Assembly (NCBI RefSeq): GCF_026344005.1
Contig: NZ_JAPKNH010000006.1
Span: forward strand, 124,001-188,000
DNA from: Kaistia terrae
GTDB lineage: Bacteria; Pseudomonadota; Alphaproteobacteria; Rhizobiales; Kaistiaceae
Direction of reading: 5' to 3'
DNA: 64,000 bases
Below, piece after piece: positions 9,217 to 18,644 of the stretch. Each line of letters opens with the position of its first letter. Position 1 is the stretch's first letter. The notes beneath the pieces are model-generated. The model was not told the origin of the DNA, made no database searches, and saw nothing but the letters and a program-made list of their open reading frames with translations. Both the position numbers and the translations under genes were made by a program.

Positions 9217-9855
9217 CTACGATGTCAGCGTCTCGCTTGCGGAACGGTATTTTTCCAGAAAAGCCTCGACTGGCATGGCGCGGAAATCCGGCAGCACCTC
9301 ACGCAACTTGTTGTGGCTCCAGTCCCACCAGCAAAGCGCCAGCAATCGATCGATCACATCGGGTGCGAAACGATATCGGATCAAGGATGCGCTGACGCCG
9401 CCCACTACGGCGAATGGGGCAACGTCCTTGGTCACGACCGCACCCGCCGCGACGATAGCCCCCGCACCGATGGTCACGTCCGGCTTGATGATTGCTCCGT
9501 GCCCGATCCAGCAGTCCGGCCCAAGCACGGTCCGGCGGGCGGCGCGGGCGGCAAAGAAATCGGCATCGTTCTCAACGTCCTCCCAATAGCTGGCGGAGCG
9601 GTAGAGGAAATGATGCTGGGCTGCATGCGTGAACGGATGGTCCGTCGGGCCGATCCGCGTCATCGCGGCGATGTTGGCGAATTTCCCGACGGTGGTATTG
9701 GCGATGTCGGCGTACTGGTCGCAATAGGCGTAGTCGCCGAACTCCGAGTTGAGGATGCGCGAGCCCTGTCCGATCTCGCAATAGGCGCCAAAGGTCGAGT
9801 TGTGCGAGGTCGCGCCGGGATGGAGCGTCGGCTCGGTGGCGGAAAGAAGAGGCAT
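9217..9855 (-). CDS. Left-handed beta-helix acyltransferase, phosphonate-associated (phn_thr-fam) type
   Basis: 212-residue hexapeptide-repeat transferase. The hexapeptide coil spans about residues 15-150 ('IKPDVTIGAGAIVAAGAVVT'), with the insertion 'TDHPFTHAAQHHFLYRSASY' near 72-91 and a C-terminal 'LLALCWWDWSHNKLREVLPD'. That combination is what I recall for the transferase family found in phosphonate (phn) operons. The active-site histidine is likely in 'GHGAIIKP'. It is the last gene of a six-gene unit with a PHP hydrolase and an ABC importer, 45 bp after the PHP gene. The acceptor, perhaps an aminoalkylphosphonate, is inference. Confidence 0.82.
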   Translation of the reverse strand: MPLLSATEPTLHPGATSHNSTFGAYCEIGQGSRILNSEFGDYAYCDQYADIANTTVGKFANIAAMTRIGPTDHPFTHAAQHHFLYRSASYWEDVENDADFFAARAARRTVLGPDCWIGHGAIIKPDVTIGAGAIVAAGAVVTKDVAPFAVVGGVSASLIRYRFAPDVIDRLLALCWWDWSHNKLREVLPDFRAMPVEAFLEKYRSASETLTS

Positions 9856-9900
9856 TGCGGAAGGTCCGGTCTGGAGGGGCGCGAGAGAAGAGTGCTGCGG

Positions 9901-10797
9901 TCAGAGATACAGCGGGTTGCTCCAGGCACGGCGCCCAGCGTGGTCCTGTATGATGAGGCGTGCCCATCGGCCGGCGAATTTTTCGAGTGGCAGCCGGGCG
10001 CGCGTAAAGTTTTCGCTCATCACGGCGGTGGAGCGTGCAGCATGGCCCACCAGCCAGGCACGGTGGATCGCGCTGGTTTCGATGTTGAGGTGGCCGGCGT
10101 CGATCTCCATGTGATGAATGGACGGGCCCTGGCTGGCGTAGTAGGCGCCGGACTTGAGCGCCGCGAGGATGGCCTCCGGCGTGTTTTCCGTCGCCTTGAC
10201 CATCACCCAGCCCCGGCAGACCTCATCGCGGTAGCGATGGGCATCGTCGGTGGCGATGACGCCGGTGTGGTGACCGCGATCGAGCATCTGGTCGATCAGA
10301 TAGTTGCCGTCGCCACGACCCGTCTCCCAGTCGCAGATGGAGTTGAACGCCTCGACGGCGTGAACGGTGGGCATCGCCAGCGCATCGTTCAGCGTCAGAC
10401 CGTACCAGCCCGGATGCGCGATCGAGACGAAGGCGCCCGCGTCGAGCGCGCGCTGCGCAAGCTGTGCGGCAGTTTCACCCGGCGCGAGCGGGGCGAAGTC
10501 GAGCGGCAGGCCGTTGGCGACCATGTGCCAGATCTCGCCATTCTCCAGGCCATCGGCGTGCAGTTCGGCGCCGATCAGAGTCGTGAAATCGTCCGTGCGG
10601 AACGGGGTCGTGTCGACGACGGGAAAGCCGAAGCGCTCCATGAAATGGTCCGTCAGGCTGACGAAGTCGTAGCCGGCCTCGCGATAGAAGGCGCAGACCC
10701 GCGCGGGCGTCGGATCGCCGTCCGAACGCGAGGAATGGCAGTGGAGGTTGCCGCGATAAAAGCGGCCTGGCGCGGTGAACGCGGTGAGCATGGGCAA
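9901..10797 (-). CDS. PHP-domain metal-dependent phosphoesterase (CehA/McbA-like)
   Basis: 298-residue PHP-fold hydrolase. Metal-ligand motifs are visible: 'NLHCHSSRSDGDP' at about residues 15-27 (H-x-H), 'SLTDHF' near 48, 'IGAELHADG' near 75, 'SIAHPGWYG' near 125 and 'ATDDAHRYR' near 190. PHP enzymes hydrolyse phosphate esters, and a PHP cyclic phosphodiesterase (PhnPP) works in some phosphonate operons. Here it lies between the ABC ATPase and the hexapeptide transferase. The product may process the imported phosphorus compound (inference). ATG 10797 or 10791 could be the start. Confidence 0.85.
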   Translation of the reverse strand: MPMLTAFTAPGRFYRGNLHCHSSRSDGDPTPARVCAFYREAGYDFVSLTDHFMERFGFPVVDTTPFRTDDFTTLIGAELHADGLENGEIWHMVANGLPLDFAPLAPGETAAQLAQRALDAGAFVSIAHPGWYGLTLNDALAMPTVHAVEAFNSICDWETGRGDGNYLIDQMLDRGHHTGVIATDDAHRYRDEVCRGWVMVKATENTPEAILAALKSGAYYASQGPSIHHMEIDAGHLNIETSAIHRAWLVGHAARSTAVMSENFTRARLPLEKFAGRWARLIIQDHAGRRAWSNPLYL

Positions 10798-10866
10798 TGC
10801 CTTCTTGGCTGAGATGATGGGGCGGATCGCCGGTGAACGCTGCCGGTGGGCGCCGGTGTCTTGGGA

Positions 10867-11934
10867 TCAGGCAGCGACGGAAGACTGCGCGCTGCCAGGC
10901 TGCGGCATGAAGCAGAGCTTGCCGTCGCGGTAGATCGCAAAATTGTGCGCACTGAGCTCGGCGCGCATGCCGGTGGACCAGCCTGTGCCGGGTTGCGCCA
11001 TGATCTTGAGCCTGTGTTCGCATCGGGTTTTGACTTCGATCGAAAGATGCGTGCCGAAATCGGTGACGCGCGTCACCTCCGCGCCACGGTCACCGCTACG
11101 TCTTTCGAGGGCGATGTCCTCCGGGCGGAGCGCCAGCGTTGCCAGGCCGTCTGCGAGCGTGACCGGAAGGTCGATCCCGGCGGCGGTCATCACGTTCGAG
11201 CGGACCGCGCCGCGCAACAGGTTCATCTGGCCGACGAAACCGGCGACGAATTCGGTCTGCGGCTGCCGGTAGAGTCTGTCCGGCCGGCTCAATTGCTCCA
11301 GTCTGCCGTCGCGCATCACGGCGATCCGGTCGGCGATGGCGAGCGCCTCGTCCTGCCCATGCGTGACGAAGACCATGGTGATCCCGACCCGACGCTGGAT
11401 TTCGCGTACTTCCTCGCGCAGTCGTTCGCGCAGATGCTGGTCGAGGCTCGCAAACGGCTCGTCCAGCAGCAGGATTTTCGGTTCGAGAACCAGTGAGCGC
11501 GCCAGCGCCACGCGTTGCTGCTGCCCGCCCGAAAGCTGGGTCGTCTTCCTTGCGCCGAACCCTTCCAGGCCGACCGTCGCGAGAGACGCGTTCACGCGCT
11601 GGTGGATTTCGTCCTTCGGAAGGCGGCGCAGCTTCAGCCCGAAGGCGACGTTGGCGAAGACGTCCATATGCGCCCACAGCGCATGGCTCTGAAACACCAT
11701 GCCTGTCGGCCGCCGCTCGGGCGGCACGCGCGTCACGTCCTGCCCGTCGATCAGGATCGACCCGGCAGTCGGCTCCTCGAAGCCGCCGATCATGCGCAGC
11801 ACCGTCGATTTGCCGGATCCCGACGGTCCCAGCAGGCAGACGAGTTCGCCATCGCCGATCGTCAGGGACAGGTCGTCCACCGCGCGGGTGTCGCCGAATA
11901 GCCGGCTTAGCTTCTTGATTTCCAGTGTCGCCAT
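10867..11934 (-). CDS. ABC importer ATP-binding protein (PotA/FbpC/PhnT-like)
   Basis: 355-residue nucleotide-binding subunit. Walker A 'GPSGSGKST' at about residues 36-44, signature 'LSGGQQQRVALARSL' near 134, Walker B 'ILLLDEPFASLD' near 154 and the H-loop histidine 'VFVTHGQDEA' near 188. The C-terminal ~110 residues form the regulatory TOBE domain of the spermidine/iron/phosphonate importer group ('LALRPEDIAL'). It lies 18 bp downstream of the second permease. Two permeases, a family-1 binding protein and a TOBE ATPase have the same layout as the 2-aminoethylphosphonate importer PhnSTUV, but do not prove the substrate. Confidence 0.93.
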   Translation of the reverse strand: MATLEIKKLSRLFGDTRAVDDLSLTIGDGELVCLLGPSGSGKSTVLRMIGGFEEPTAGSILIDGQDVTRVPPERRPTGMVFQSHALWAHMDVFANVAFGLKLRRLPKDEIHQRVNASLATVGLEGFGARKTTQLSGGQQQRVALARSLVLEPKILLLDEPFASLDQHLRERLREEVREIQRRVGITMVFVTHGQDEALAIADRIAVMRDGRLEQLSRPDRLYRQPQTEFVAGFVGQMNLLRGAVRSNVMTAAGIDLPVTLADGLATLALRPEDIALERRSGDRGAEVTRVTDFGTHLSIEVKTRCEHRLKIMAQPGTGWSTGMRAELSAHNFAIYRDGKLCFMPQPGSAQSSVAA

Positions 11935-11952
11935 TTGCAGGCTCCTCGTATC

Positions 11953-12807
11953 TTAGGCTCCGAGCGCGCGGCCGAGCGCCTGCGCTCCCAGAAAGCGGCG
12001 GACCAGCATGAGCAGGATGAAGGACGGGACCCACAGCAGCAGCGACAACACCGCGCCGTACTGAACCACCAGTTCGGAGTTGATGAAGCGGACCATCAGC
12101 AGCGGCACGGTGCGCACTTCGGGCGCGCCGATCAGCCAGGCGACCTCGGTCTCGTAAAAGGTGTTGACGAAGGTGAGCAGCACGGCCGCGGAGATGGCGG
12201 GAAGGACCTGGGGCAGGGTGATCGACCAGAACACGCGCAGTTGCGATGCCCCGACATCGCGCGCGGCCTCTTCCTGCCGCCGGTCAACGTTCTGGAACGC
12301 GGAAACAGGTATCCACACCATGAACATCAGTGTCGAGACGAGCTGGATGAGCACCACGCCCCAGAAATTGCCGATGAGGCCGAGACCCAGGAAGATCGTC
12401 GCGATGGTGATGTAGAGGCCGAACTTCGGAAAGGCGTAGACGGTCAGGAACGACATGAAGAACAGGTTGCGACCGGGAAAGTTCAGGCGCGCGAAAGCGT
12501 AGGACGCGGGCAGGCAGATCAGAGCCGACAATGCCGTCACGATCGCGGCCAGGGACAGCGACGTCGTCATCGCCAGGTGCACATCACCGCGCGACAGGAC
12601 ATCGGCCCAGAAGCGGAAGCCGAACTTCTGCGGGATCACCGCCGGGTAGCGCCATACTTCGGTGAAGGCCCAGATCGCGACGTTGACGAGCGGCGTCAGG
12701 ATGAAGAGCGAGAGCAGGGCGGCAATGGCGATCCCGGCCCAGTTGGCGCGGATGCGGGAAGAGCCAATGCCGGCCAGACCCGCTTGGCGGAGTTCGCGAA
12801 CGCTCAT
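11953..12807 (-). CDS. ABC importer permease (BPD_transp_1)
   Basis: 284-residue inner-membrane permease with about six hydrophobic segments. The EAA loop that docks the ATPase is visible as 'EEAARDVGASQLRVFWSITL' near residues 182-201. The start overlaps the stop of the preceding permease gene by 4 bp (ATGA), indicating translational coupling. It forms the second half of the heterodimeric channel of the importer at 10.9-14.8 kb. Confidence 0.92.
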   Translation of the reverse strand: MSVRELRQAGLAGIGSSRIRANWAGIAIAALLSLFILTPLVNVAIWAFTEVWRYPAVIPQKFGFRFWADVLSRGDVHLAMTTSLSLAAIVTALSALICLPASYAFARLNFPGRNLFFMSFLTVYAFPKFGLYITIATIFLGLGLIGNFWGVVLIQLVSTLMFMVWIPVSAFQNVDRRQEEAARDVGASQLRVFWSITLPQVLPAISAAVLLTFVNTFYETEVAWLIGAPEVRTVPLLMVRFINSELVVQYGAVLSLLLWVPSFILLMLVRRFLGAQALGRALGA

Positions 12808-13679
12808 GACGATTGCTCCCGGCGGGTTCGTGCAATCGAGCGCACATAAAAGTAGGCGAAGGCTGCGCAGATCATGAAGCTGACGACGGCCTGCGTGCGC
12901 GCCTGCAACGGGTCGTCGACATCGATGATCGTGCGGCGCATGAACGGTCCCATCATCTCCGGAACCGCCGGACCCAGCAGGTAGGGCAGCGTGAACGCGG
13001 AAAAGAGGCCAAGAACGACGAAGGACGCGGCGACCAGCAGCGTGCTGCGGATGCGCGGCAGGATGATGTAGCGGAGCACCTGCGCCCTGTTGGCGCCGAC
13101 GTCACGAGCGGCGTCGATCGAGGCGCTCGATACGTTGCCGAGGCCGGCAAGCACGATCAGAAGCGTCAGGGGAAGATTGTCCCATACCAGTCCGATGATC
13201 GGCCCCCAGATCGTCAGATAGGGAGATGCCAGCTTCGGCAGGCCGACGGCGTTGAGCAGGATGTCCACGGTTCCGTTCGGGCCGAGCGTGCGGATCAGCG
13301 CGTAGGCGAGCAGGATCGAAGGAACGAACAGCGGAAACAGCGCCAGCGCCTGAATGTATCCGGTGAGCCGGGACGTGGAAAAGCGCAGGTAGAGGGCGAT
13401 GGTGAGGCTGATGATGAGCAGCAGCACGGTGCAGATCGCGGCCACCTGGATGGTCATCCACAGGTTGCGCAGGCTGAAGCCATCGGAAAAGAAAAAGCGA
13501 TACGCGTCGAGGCTCAGCGCGACGCCCGAAGGCGTTTCGACGGTGAGCGTATCGAAGACCGACAGCGCTACGGGCCAGATGATCAGCAACAATACCAGAG
13601 ATACGGGCGCGGCGATGAGGAGGAGGCCGAATAGCCTCCCCCCCTTCGCGTCCTGTCTTGTGGCTTCAGCGCGTGACAT
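12804..13679 (-). CDS. ABC importer permease (BPD_transp_1)
   Basis: 291-residue inner-membrane permease. An N-terminal segment 'LLLIAAPVSLVLLLIIWPVA' is followed by five further hydrophobic stretches and the EAA loop 'DAARDVGANRAQVLRYIILP' near residue 190. It overlaps the end of the binding-protein gene by 14 bp and the start of the next permease by 4 bp, so the operon is tightly packed. Function as in its partner permease. Confidence 0.92.
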   Translation of the reverse strand: MSRAEATRQDAKGGRLFGLLLIAAPVSLVLLLIIWPVALSVFDTLTVETPSGVALSLDAYRFFFSDGFSLRNLWMTIQVAAICTVLLLIISLTIALYLRFSTSRLTGYIQALALFPLFVPSILLAYALIRTLGPNGTVDILLNAVGLPKLASPYLTIWGPIIGLVWDNLPLTLLIVLAGLGNVSSASIDAARDVGANRAQVLRYIILPRIRSTLLVAASFVVLGLFSAFTLPYLLGPAVPEMMGPFMRRTIIDVDDPLQARTQAVVSFMICAAFAYFYVRSIARTRREQSS

Positions 13680-14802
13680 GGGGCGCTACGGTGCGGAACC
13701 AGCCGTCGCTGATCGCCGAAACCCACGGACCGCCGGGGAAGGTCGGGATCGAGGCAGGCTGCATCGCAGCGTATTTCGCGGCCAGGTCTTGCGGGAGATA
13801 TTCCCACGAAATCGCCGGGAACGCGCCGATCTCGGTGACGACCTTGGTCTGGATTTCAGGCGACAGCACGATGTCGGCGAGCTTCATCGTCGCTTCGAGG
13901 TCGCCCGCATTGGTCGGGACGGTCATGTCGGCGAAGCCGCCGGCCAGGGCGAGGTCGGTCAGCTGCGTGAAGCCGGTGGTCTCGGGCAGGACGCCCTTGT
14001 TGACGGCGTCCAGCGCCATGTCGGACCAGACCGGCACCATGGTGACCACGCCCTGCGCGAGCAGCTGGATCGACTGCATGTTGTCGCCAGTGTAGGAGCC
14101 GGGTCCGTAGGTGTAGGGCGCGATCTCCTTCAGGAGCTCAAAGCCCTTGGCAAGCAGCTTGTCGCTGTCGCCGGCGACGTAGTTGTCGATCCGGAAGAGC
14201 GACGGGTCGCGGCCGTTGGCCTCGTGGATCGCGCGGCGGACGAAATTGCCGCCCGAACCGCCCGTGTCGGGACGGTTGTGGGTGAATTGGCCCGGATTTG
14301 CCTTCATCCATGCGACCAGTTCGGCCCAGGTCTTCGGCGCGTCTTCCGGCTTCAGCTTGGTGGTGTCGTAGGCGAGCACGACCTGCGTGCCGCGATAGGG
14401 CAGGCCGTATTTGGTCTCGATCGTGACCGGGTTGAGCTTGTCGTAGTTGGCGATGCCGGCCTTGGTAAAATCGACCCAGAGGCCCTTCTCGATAGCGCCC
14501 TTCGGCAAGTTCGGATCATTCTCGTCGAAGAGGTCGACCTGGGGGTCGACATTGCTGCCGAGCGCGGCAAGGGCACGATCGACGATCGGCGCTATGTTGT
14601 TGCGCGCGCTGACCACGTTGAGCGTGTATTGCGGATTGGCCTTCTCGTAGGCCGGCTTGATGATGTTGTTCCAGAAATTGATGATGTTGGAATCGCCGGT
14701 GATGTAGACGTCGATCCGTTTGGTGTCCGCCATGGCGGCGGCCGGCATGGCCAGCAGCGCCGCTGCGGCGATGGTGGAGCGGAAAAGATTTCTGCGATTC
14801 AT
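13666..14802 (-). CDS. Periplasmic substrate-binding protein (family 1, YnjB/PhnS-like)
   Basis: 378-residue extracellular solute-binding protein. From ATG 14802 it has a signal peptide with 'NRRNLFRSTIAAAALLA' and a cleavage site around 'PAAAMADT'. An ATG at 14808 is also in frame, but 'ggag' directly abuts it, so 14802 has the better spacing. The mature protein opens 'KRIDVYITGDSNIINFWNNI', as in family-1 binding proteins for spermidine, iron, thiamine or phosphonate. It is the first gene of the importer operon, divergent from the GntR/UTRA regulator. The ligand is not defined by sequence. Confidence 0.88.
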   Translation of the reverse strand: MNRRNLFRSTIAAAALLAMPAAAMADTKRIDVYITGDSNIINFWNNIIKPAYEKANPQYTLNVVSARNNIAPIVDRALAALGSNVDPQVDLFDENDPNLPKGAIEKGLWVDFTKAGIANYDKLNPVTIETKYGLPYRGTQVVLAYDTTKLKPEDAPKTWAELVAWMKANPGQFTHNRPDTGGSGGNFVRRAIHEANGRDPSLFRIDNYVAGDSDKLLAKGFELLKEIAPYTYGPGSYTGDNMQSIQLLAQGVVTMVPVWSDMALDAVNKGVLPETTGFTQLTDLALAGGFADMTVPTNAGDLEATMKLADIVLSPEIQTKVVTEIGAFPAISWEYLPQDLAAKYAAMQPASIPTFPGGPWVSAISDGWFRTVAPHVTR

Positions 14803-15029
14803 GGTCATCTCCGGTTCGGGGCGGCAGCCGTCGCTCACCGGCCGCGAAAGGCCGGTTGCGATCCATTGCCTGAATTTGTGATGCGGGTTCGCGGAGCGGT
14901 TCGCCCGGCGAATGCGTGATTGCTACAGAATCGTCATTCGGATGCCGTTGTTGTCGATACCGTGCGGAGCGCGATCCGCTTCGGCCGTTGCCCGTTCTGA
15001 ATAGGGGCTGATTGTGAAATACGCATGAC

Positions 15030-15045
15030 AGCTGTAGGTACAGCT
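15030..15045. promoter_or_regulatory. Perfect 7-bp palindrome, likely GntR/UTRA operator
   Basis: The sequence agctgta-gg-tacagct is an exact inverted repeat with a 2-bp centre, inside the 305-bp space between the divergent importer operon (ATG 14802) and the GntR gene (ATG 15108). Its core gtaggtac fits the short G-T...A-C palindromes bound by HutC/PhnF-type GntR proteins. It lies 62 bp before the regulator start and could control both directions. The rest of the intergenic region shows no gene. Confidence 0.6.
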
Positions 15046-15107
15046 ATCGACATATTTGATCGACGGATCTATTGCTTCGAGCCGGTCGGCAACTGGCAGG
15101 GAAACGC

Positions 15108-15809
15108 ATGAAGTCGCAGTGGGAGGCGCTCTACGTCGAGCTGAGAGACGGCATTCGCAACCGCAAATATGCGCCGGGACAACGCCTGCCGACAGAACAT
15201 GAGCTTTCGGCCAGTCATGGCGTCAGCCGCAACACGGTGCGGCGAGCGTATCTTGCCCTGTCGCAGGACGGCCTTATCCGCATCGTCAACGGACGCGGCA
15301 GCTATGTCATGGAGAACGGCATCGTCTACGAGATCGATGCCGTGTCGCGGTTCCGCGACGTGCTCGACCGTCTCGGCGTGGACAGCACCTCTCGGGTGAT
15401 CCAGAGCGCCGTCGAGGCCGCCGTTGGAGAGGTTGCGGAAAGGCTGGAACTGGTGGAAGGCAATCTCGTGCTTCGCCACACGACAGTGATCCTCGGCGGC
15501 GACGTGCCGTTCATCCTCACCACGCGCTATTTTCCGTTCGACCTCATTCCCGACTTCGAAAACCGTCTTGCGCGCATGGGGGCGTTTACACCGCTGCTGC
15601 GCGAAGAAGGGTTGGGGGATCTCCACCGCGTCTCGACTACGGTCGGCGCGCGCATGCCACGGGATGACGAGGCTGCACTACTTGCGTGCCCTCACAATGC
15701 GCCGCTGCTCGACGTTTCCGCGCTGGGTCGTCTATCCGACGGCAGAGCTGTTGAATGGCAGCAGGCCGTGATGAACAGCCAGCTGATCCGGCTGTCGTTC
15801 TCGGCATGA
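15108..15809 (+). CDS. GntR family regulator with UTRA domain (PhnF-like)
   Basis: 233-residue HutC-subfamily regulator. An N-terminal winged helix-turn-helix spans about residues 5-70 ('GQRLPTEHELSASHGVSRNT', ending in 'NGRGSYV'), followed by a UTRA effector domain from about residue 90 (including 'LRHTTVILGGDVPFILTTRY'). ATG 15108 is chosen because 'caggga' is 5 nt upstream; the frame is open back to 15072. It is divergent from the importer/PHP/transferase operon, as PhnF-type regulators often are to phosphonate genes. Repression relieved by the imported ligand is inference. Confidence 0.92.
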   Translation: MKSQWEALYVELRDGIRNRKYAPGQRLPTEHELSASHGVSRNTVRRAYLALSQDGLIRIVNGRGSYVMENGIVYEIDAVSRFRDVLDRLGVDSTSRVIQSAVEAAVGEVAERLELVEGNLVLRHTTVILGGDVPFILTTRYFPFDLIPDFENRLARMGAFTPLLREEGLGDLHRVSTTVGARMPRDDEAALLACPHNAPLLDVSALGRLSDGRAVEWQQAVMNSQLIRLSFSA

Positions 15810-15812
15810 TGA

Positions 15813-18644
<2,832 letters not shown>

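Follow-up and report, generated by a model that had tools for sequence, protein, structure and literature searches.

A probable accessory operon for phosphonate use, with a PHP-fold metallohydrolase, in Kaistia terrae and other bacteria

The DNA under study, hereafter the window, is a stretch of 64,000 nucleotides from Kaistia terrae (contig NZ_JAPKNH010000006.1, positions 124,001 to 188,000). An earlier note on it, made from the sequence alone, had described a six-gene operon divergent from a PhnF-like GntR gene and had proposed that it serves the uptake and processing of phosphonates or organophosphates without carbon-phosphorus (C-P) lyase. All seven genes were found where they had been placed, and their families were confirmed (Table 1). 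The six operon genes occupy 9217–14838 on the minus strand and encode, in operon order, a solute-binding protein (SBP), two permeases and a TOBE-bearing ATPase of an ATP-binding cassette (ABC) transporter, a PHP enzyme and a hexapeptide transferase (HEX); the GntR gene lies on the plus strand. Some reading frames are probably shorter than called: judged against orthologues, the regulator probably starts at the ATG at 15108, and the SBP and PHP genes probably start at the ATGs at 14802 and 10791, respectively. The gene caller places starts too far upstream and overlooks some genes at certain loci, so its gene counts are lower bounds.

Table 1. Genes and promoter elements of the operon region, with their positions in the window
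Feature	Position	Strand	Evidence
GntR/UTRA regulator, HutC-type, PhnF-like	15072..15809	+	GntR 65.2 bits; UTRA 80.2 bits
Imperfect palindrome CTGTA-CC-TACAG, probable operator; reads CTGTAGGTACAG on the plus strand	15032..15043	.	Identical 12-mer across loci
Pho-box-like element CTGTCATGCGTATTTCAC	15014..15031	-	11/14 consensus positions; directly after the operator
Periplasmic solute-binding protein, SBP_bac_8/SBP_bac_6	13666..14838	-	PF13416 92.7 bits; PF13343 28.7 bits
ABC permease 1	12804..13679	-	PF00528 43.3 bits; overlaps the end of the SBP gene
ABC permease 2	11953..12807	-	PF00528 49.3 bits; 4-base overlap with permease 1
ABC ATPase with TOBE_2	10867..11934	-	PF00005 128.5 bits; PF08402 26.0 bits
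PHP-fold metallohydrolase, CehA/McbA family	9901..10797	-	NF038032 91.5 bits (cut-off 80)
Left-handed beta-helix (hexapeptide) acyltransferase, TIGR03308	9217..9855	-	295.1 bits (cut-off 201.65)

The operon recurs in other bacteria. A scan of named genomes yielded seven further loci with SBPs 81–95% identical to that of the window, in Kaistia granuli, Kaistia adipata, Aquibium sp. A9E412, Aquibium carbonis, Stappia stellulata, Brucella tritici (a 7.3-kb contig of an isolate assembly) and Paracoccus shanxieyensis; plasmid records added Haematobacter massiliensis pOT1-5, bringing the carriers to nine. Identity in the other genera amounts to 81–86% for the SBP, 76–88% for the permeases, 70–72% for the ATPase, 72–77% for the PHP protein, 59–67% for the GntR regulator and, where HEX is present, 40% for HEX. 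Because gene order is kept in these genera, the cluster is not due to chance. The divergent GntR gene is present in the window and at all seven other loci searched, with a match of only about 90 residues in Paracoccus. Of the operon’s enzymes, PHP is the most constant, found in eight of nine cases (the window, Haematobacter and, by tblastn, six of the seven others). HEX is part of the operon in the window, K. granuli, K. adipata, Brucella, Paracoccus and Haematobacter, and was not found in the operons of the two Aquibium carriers and Stappia. Across the order, the SBP had matches at E 1e-20 in 41 of 397 genomes, 35 of them strong (E under 1e-100), and three of these were of the window's type; a class-wide sample of 289 added four genomes besides the window's, all with weak matches.

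In Paracoccus and Haematobacter, the operon has complete C-P lyase genes as neighbors. The 65-kb Paracoccus contig combines the operon with a complete phnFGHIJKL-HEX-MN set, several transposase genes, and a second, more divergent set in which phnF-like and phnH to phnM genes were recognized. It also carries phnC, phnD (in two pieces), phnE, phnE, HEX and more phnC/phnE-type genes; it holds two TIGR03308 genes besides that of the operon. On pOT1-5, the order is operon, recombinase, Tn3 transposase, phnN, M, HEX, L, K, J, I, H, G and phnF (L269 16010-34022). Stretches of 13.7 kb and 14.7 kb (about 28 kb) are common to Haematobacter and Paracoccus at 100% identity, and 6.1 kb of the operon part is common to Haematobacter and the Brucella contig at 99.8%. 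Since these shared stretches are nearly identical, we treat the three as a single, recent mobile island and as one lineage. Among 160 plasmid records that matched a 10-kb island query, none other than Haematobacter itself carried most of it, and no relative was found on viral contigs. The linkage to C-P lyase genes supports the proposed connection to phosphorus, and specifically to phosphonates, as do the distribution of TIGR03308 and the neighbors of some PHP homologues, described below.

The K. terrae genome also encodes C-P lyase. Its phn cluster is on another contig (C1; the window belongs to C34) and reads phnCDEE-GntR-GHIJ-GNAT-KL-M-N. PhnJ (E 9.5e-149, at G000:C1:533498) passes Pfam, and PhnG, H, K, L, M and D exceed their NCBIfam cut-offs; the genes that we take to be phnC, E, I and N were named from their sequences and position. 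Every one of the nine carriers has phnJ (the K. terrae genome, all seven others searched, and the Haematobacter plasmid itself), while across the order 161 of 297 genomes have it. The description “without C-P lyase” therefore holds locally, with phnJ on another contig, and fails at the level of the genome, where the phn cluster is full. Because phnJ is present in every carrier found, the operon appears to be auxiliary to C-P lyase, not the separate route that had been envisaged. No evidence emerged for detoxification, which had also been suggested.

HEX is a clear member of TIGR03308, a family that we take to be defined by its location in C-P lyase operons. The protein resembles CatB/Vat acetyltransferases, and its DHP histidine aligns with a CatB histidine. 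The copy in the window is on another contig than phnJ and so is not inside a C-P lyase operon. Does the family as a whole follow C-P lyase? In the order, HEX exceeded its cut-off in 137 of the 297 genomes. Places are available for 128 of these (9 of 137 HEX genomes and 11 of 161 PhnJ genomes lack one), and 124 of the 128 also have PhnJ, compared with 161 of 297 overall; four do not. The distance between HEX and phnJ is 15 kb or less in at least 99 of the 128; in another 25, PhnJ is on another contig, farther off or without a given place, and one of these 25, G005, has HEX inside a phn cluster. In the three Kaistia carriers, the operon copy is the only HEX above the cut-off. In Aquibium and Stappia, HEX adjoins PhnJ instead, and Brucella and Paracoccus have both an operon copy and a PhnJ-linked one. 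Of the six other same-genus genomes in the sample of 297, five place HEX no more than 15 kb from PhnJ, the exception being G244. In that genome (L192 8725-15077), HEX and a PhnM homologue (43%) are located away from the C-P lyase cluster and adjoin a LacI gene and a sugar-type ABC transporter.

A tree of 66 HEX rows groups the Kaistia copies with a PhnJ-adjacent Paracoccus copy as their sister (L235, support 100), within a clade that is mostly C-P-lyase-linked; the Brucella/Paracoccus operon copy falls elsewhere. The tree thus hinted at two independent recruitments into the operon. An approximately unbiased (AU) test on 59 rows (seven long or near-duplicate rows having been dropped) did not uphold this: a single operon clade was not rejected (p = 0.47), and for that reason we do not claim repeated recruitment. 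The link between HEX and C-P lyase is in part already known, as the portion of PMC3840354 considered here mentions marine C-P lyase clusters that contain a hexapeptide-family transferase whose role is undefined.

The promoter carries two conserved elements. The palindrome is probably the operator of the GntR regulator; the 12-mer CTGTACCTACAG is identical and upstream of the operon in all nine cases. An 18-base pattern drawn round it occurs in the K. terrae genome at this site only, with up to two mismatches allowed. We also considered an operator common to the operon and the genome’s own phn cluster, and rejected it, since none was found in that cluster at up to two mismatches. The Pho-box-like element was scored against a Pho-box consensus. 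The window has three such sites where 3.06 are expected by chance, making the element weak on its own; we retain it as a candidate since all nine operons have it immediately behind the operator (9–11 of 14 positions). Upstream of phnG, the K. terrae genome has another Pho-box-like sequence, CTGTCATCAAATCGTCAC (11/14), and at the carrier locus L257 the interval from phnG to the GntR gene contains a 14/14 site. Dual control of the operon by GntR and PhoB is plausible.

The PHP protein, of which the K. terrae genome has a single copy, falls short of the Pfam PHP model (PF02811, 20.2 bits; cut-off 26.4), but its predicted structure has a clear PHP fold with a conserved set of metal-type residues. 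The fold is shared with the PHP phosphoesterases TM0559, BVU_3505 and RNase AM and with PsfC, and the nearest solved structures are annotated as phosphoesterases. The protein differs from that set in having no match by sequence in the PDB at E 0.1 and only weak matches in a profile search. Its homologues were sampled at 45 loci, five of which contain a core phosphonate gene, compared with none of 40 loci of cousin transporters, introduced below. With transporters other than that of the operon, PHP homologues stand beside phnX and psrA in Agrobacterium, beside phnA, phnY and psrA in Ensifer, beside phnX and HpnW at locus L082, and beside C-P lyase genes at L045, L050 and L053 (one genus).

Several PHP neighborhoods merit description in their own right. 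At L056 (3159-11021, genome G087), a PHP homologue stands beside TIGR03308 and GntR genes; this 8-kb stretch combines a PhnF-like GntR gene, a sugar-type ABC transporter, PHP and HEX, in an 8.9-Mb genome with five PhnJ matches. On a plasmid of R. leguminosarum Vaf10 (L275 3706-18839), a PHP homologue adjoins a PhnF gene and a phosphoenolpyruvate (PEP) mutase cluster: a PhnF-controlled oligopeptide-type ABC transporter and PHP are next to genes for PEP mutase, an aminotransferase, a cytidylyltransferase and a CDP-alcohol phosphatidyltransferase. This locus possibly represents phosphonolipid synthesis beside salvage. In one group (L059-L061, L066, L073, L076 and L080), the PHP homologues adjoin what is presumably a Kup-type potassium transporter gene, with presumed SspB- and MepA-like neighbors, and no phosphonate gene was found there. 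In the open-licence literature, we found no paper joining phosphonate, a PHP domain, an ABC transporter and a hexapeptide protein, and none on a PHP cyclic-phosphate phosphodiesterase with phosphonate. By term counts, neither “PHP” nor “hexapeptide” occurs in the review PMC10574752.

What might the transporter bind? The SBP model (pLDDT 85.5) had as its best Foldseek match 4r6y, Salmonella stm0429, to which it is 17% identical over the structural alignment; according to the portion of PMC10574752 used here, 4r6y is PhnS of Salmonella. By sequence, the SBP had no PDB match at E 0.01. More can be learned from its cousins, 40 loci at about 44–60% SBP identity. At least 27 of these have a GDPD-like gene and at least 28 an IMPase-like gene (one representative of each call was checked in Pfam), which suggests phosphoester-like ligands; genes for TIM-barrel, ROK and Gfo/Idh proteins characterize a second cousin group. 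Neither the PHP nor the HEX of the operon occurs at any of the 40, although L133 has a PHP-like hit of 27% identity. At 15 SBP positions, the operon type (7 sequences) is invariant and the GDPD/IMPase type (24 sequences) has another residue in at least 90% (T192 versus K192, for example); many other columns are invariant across all 39 sequences. This pattern suggests that the operon’s SBP has a ligand that is related to those of the cousins and phosphoryl-bearing, yet different. The GDPD and IMPase ABC operon of Hyphomicrobiales (L121-L150), which sometimes includes LacI, resembles agrocinopine Acc in its logic, and no paper plainly about it was found in the open-licence literature.

We conclude, with a probability of about 0.6, that the operon is a locally controlled, mobile accessory for phosphonate use, in which the PHP enzyme trims an imported phosphonate derivative before C-P lyase. 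We infer the ligand, the PHP chemistry, the acyl acceptor and the regulation as follows. The SBP and ABC transporter would import a phosphonate derivative, which the PHP metalloenzyme would trim in the cytoplasm, most plausibly by hydrolyzing a P-O-C ester or a similar substituent. HEX, where present, would acylate an amino- or hydroxy-phosphonate, and the product would enter C-P lyase encoded elsewhere. Until the ligand is present, the PhnF-like GntR protein would keep the operon repressed from its site at CTGTACCTACAG, and PhoB may share in this control. Ester hydrolysis is proposed because PHP takes the place of the cousins’ GDPD, because its fold is that of phosphoesterases, and because its homologues stand beside three unrelated routes of C-P cleavage. 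Those routes have free phosphonates in common and no later intermediate.

A number of observations weigh against this conclusion. The regulator and the ATPase fall below the relevant phosphonate cut-offs (TIGR02325, PhnF, 149.8 against 156.8 bits; PhnT2, 342.4 of 457.7; PhnT, 277.2 of 499.15), and no phosphonate family exceeded its cut-off among the 13 neighboring genes scanned in the window. In K. terrae, the operon is separated from phnJ, and its operator does not recur in the phn cluster. Linkage to C-P lyase is seen in one lineage only, that of the Paracoccus/Haematobacter/Brucella island. Co-occurrence with C-P lyase is weak on its own, since PhnJ is common in cousin-transporter genomes too (17 of the 21 common to both samples). 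The earlier note would have taken consistent ties of homologous loci to unrelated pathways as refuting its proposal, and on that point the outcome is mixed. The operon proper is phosphonate-linked in the one lineage in which phn neighbors were found, but 40 of the 45 sampled PHP loci have no core phosphonate gene, and the genes that accompany the cousin transporters are those for GDPD and IMPase and not phn genes. Among the plasmid PHP neighborhoods viewed (7 of 18 records), two from Streptomyces and one from Haladaptatus lack a phosphonate gene. The SBP fold matches binders of sugars, dinucleotides, glycerophosphocholine and sugar phosphates about as well as it does PhnS (VIA-align). PHP was not found in the 21-kb K. 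granuli locus, which keeps the transporter, regulator and HEX, and the AU result leaves HEX with a possible single entry into the operon.

Some of these same facts invite the thought that the operon imports an ordinary phosphate ester, such as a glycerophosphodiester, sugar phosphodiester or sugar phosphate, with PHP replacing the cousins’ GDPD as phosphodiesterase. PHP folds are typically phosphoesterases, GDPD and IMPase genes prevail at the cousin loci from which the operon’s PHP is missing, the two groups have many invariant SBP columns in common, and the SBP model also matches AfuA, as well as UgpB with glycerophosphocholine. We nonetheless consider this unlikely, in view of the TIGR03308 and PhnF-like genes in the operon, the C-P lyase linkage in the Paracoccus/Haematobacter island, the PHP homologues beside phnX and phnA/phnY, and the 15 group-specific SBP positions. 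In another candidate chemistry, PHP would not hydrolyze a P-O-C ester but would strip an aminophosphonate of an N-acyl, carbamoyl or related amide group. NCBIfam puts PHP in the CehA/McbA family, CehA hydrolyzes a carbamate, and some PHP homologues lie beside aminoethylphosphonate-type genes; yet an amide hydrolase beside an acyltransferase would be futile if both acted on the same amine, and with the nearest solved folds annotated as phosphoesterases, we judge this reaction improbable.

PHP might instead act after C-P lyase, opening its ribosyl cyclic phosphate product in the role of PhnP or of PhnPP/cPDH, the latter being a PHP enzyme with that role. A PhnP above the cut-off was found in none of 16 genomes, which include all eight carriers searched, and five of the 16 have weak matches (45–53 bits; cut-off 272). 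However, eight non-carriers, all with PhnJ, likewise lack PhnP and also lack PHP (order-wide search at E 1e-20). The PHP enzyme is evidently not needed in those eight genomes, which weakens the idea that it complements a missing PhnP. The K. granuli operon without PHP argues in the same direction, as do the homologues beside phnX or phnA/phnY, pathways that to our knowledge do not make a ribosyl cyclic phosphate. For clusters without phnP, the portion of PMC3840354 considered here proposes another phosphoesterase, RcsF. We give this role little credence, and about as little to the idea that PHP is a dinuclear iron oxygenase like PsfC, with which it shares the fold, oxidizing a phosphonate and not acting as a hydrolase.

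The trimming reaction that we favor can be extended, tentatively and at well below even odds, into a broader proposal: that PHP is a dedicated phosphonate-ester hydrolase, and that the operon and the PHP operons beside phnX, phnA/phnY or C-P lyase genes form a recurring module for the salvage of esterified phosphonates. The transporters of those separate PHP operons are of the oligopeptide or sugar type of ABC transporter. If the proposal is true, the substrates would include deacylated phosphonolipid head groups and phosphonoglycan fragments, and the module would provide the missing release of phosphonates ahead of the known routes of C-P bond cleavage.

How does the operon compare with known systems? 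With the E. coli type PhnCDE-PhnGHIJKLMN, it has in common ABC import, PhnF-type regulation, an acyltransferase and a Pho-box-like promoter element; it differs in its SBP and ABC families, its PHP enzyme and its own operator, and the operon in the window has no C-P lyase genes. The 2-aminoethylphosphonate transporters PhnSTUV, AepXVW and AepSTU have an SBP of the same broad class, but the operon’s ATPase falls below the PhnT2 and PhnT cut-offs, and no PhnWX or PhnWAY is present among the neighboring genes scanned. The homologous SBP-permease-permease-ATPase set of the GDPD and IMPase operons is accompanied here by PHP and HEX instead, and by a PhnF-like GntR in place of LacI or no recognized regulator. 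Those operons, like the agrocinopine Acc operons, couple an importer to a phosphodiesterase; AccG is an IMPase-type phosphatase, and AccA belongs to another SBP family. PhnO, an aminophosphonate N-acetyltransferase of the GNAT type, is likewise an acyltransferase tied to C-P lyase, whereas HEX is a left-handed beta-helix protein of TIGR03308. In the portions of the sources used here, AccA recognizes and AccF cleaves agrocinopine (PMC7356202), the role of PhnO in the C-P lyase context is described (PMC3840354), AepX carries PF13343, as does the operon’s SBP (PMC8316502), and PhnCDE, PhnSTUV and AepXVW/AepP/AepSTU are known transporters (PMC8316502, PMC10574752).

Elsewhere in the window, at 16484-18644, is an aldo/keto reductase-type gene pair that matched the same NCBIfam models and is likely a tandem duplication.

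Part of environmental phosphonate is esterified. The portion of PMC5649143 considered here describes alkylphosphonate esters in marine polysaccharides that C-P lyase bacteria use, releasing methane and ethylene; it holds that ester degradation may be a key step and names no enzyme for it. An importer and a PHP hydrolase that recur beside three phosphonate routes are a concrete and testable candidate for that step, and one such module lies on a Tn3-bearing island of two Rhodobacterales genera and on the 7.3-kb Brucella tritici contig. The operon also offers a setting for testing the substrate of TIGR03308, whose role in C-P lyase clusters is called undefined in the considered portion of PMC3840354. 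For the bacteria of soil and sea that carry it, the cluster is probably a self-regulated, mobile means of importing an unusual carbon-phosphorus nutrient and trimming it with a metal enzyme.

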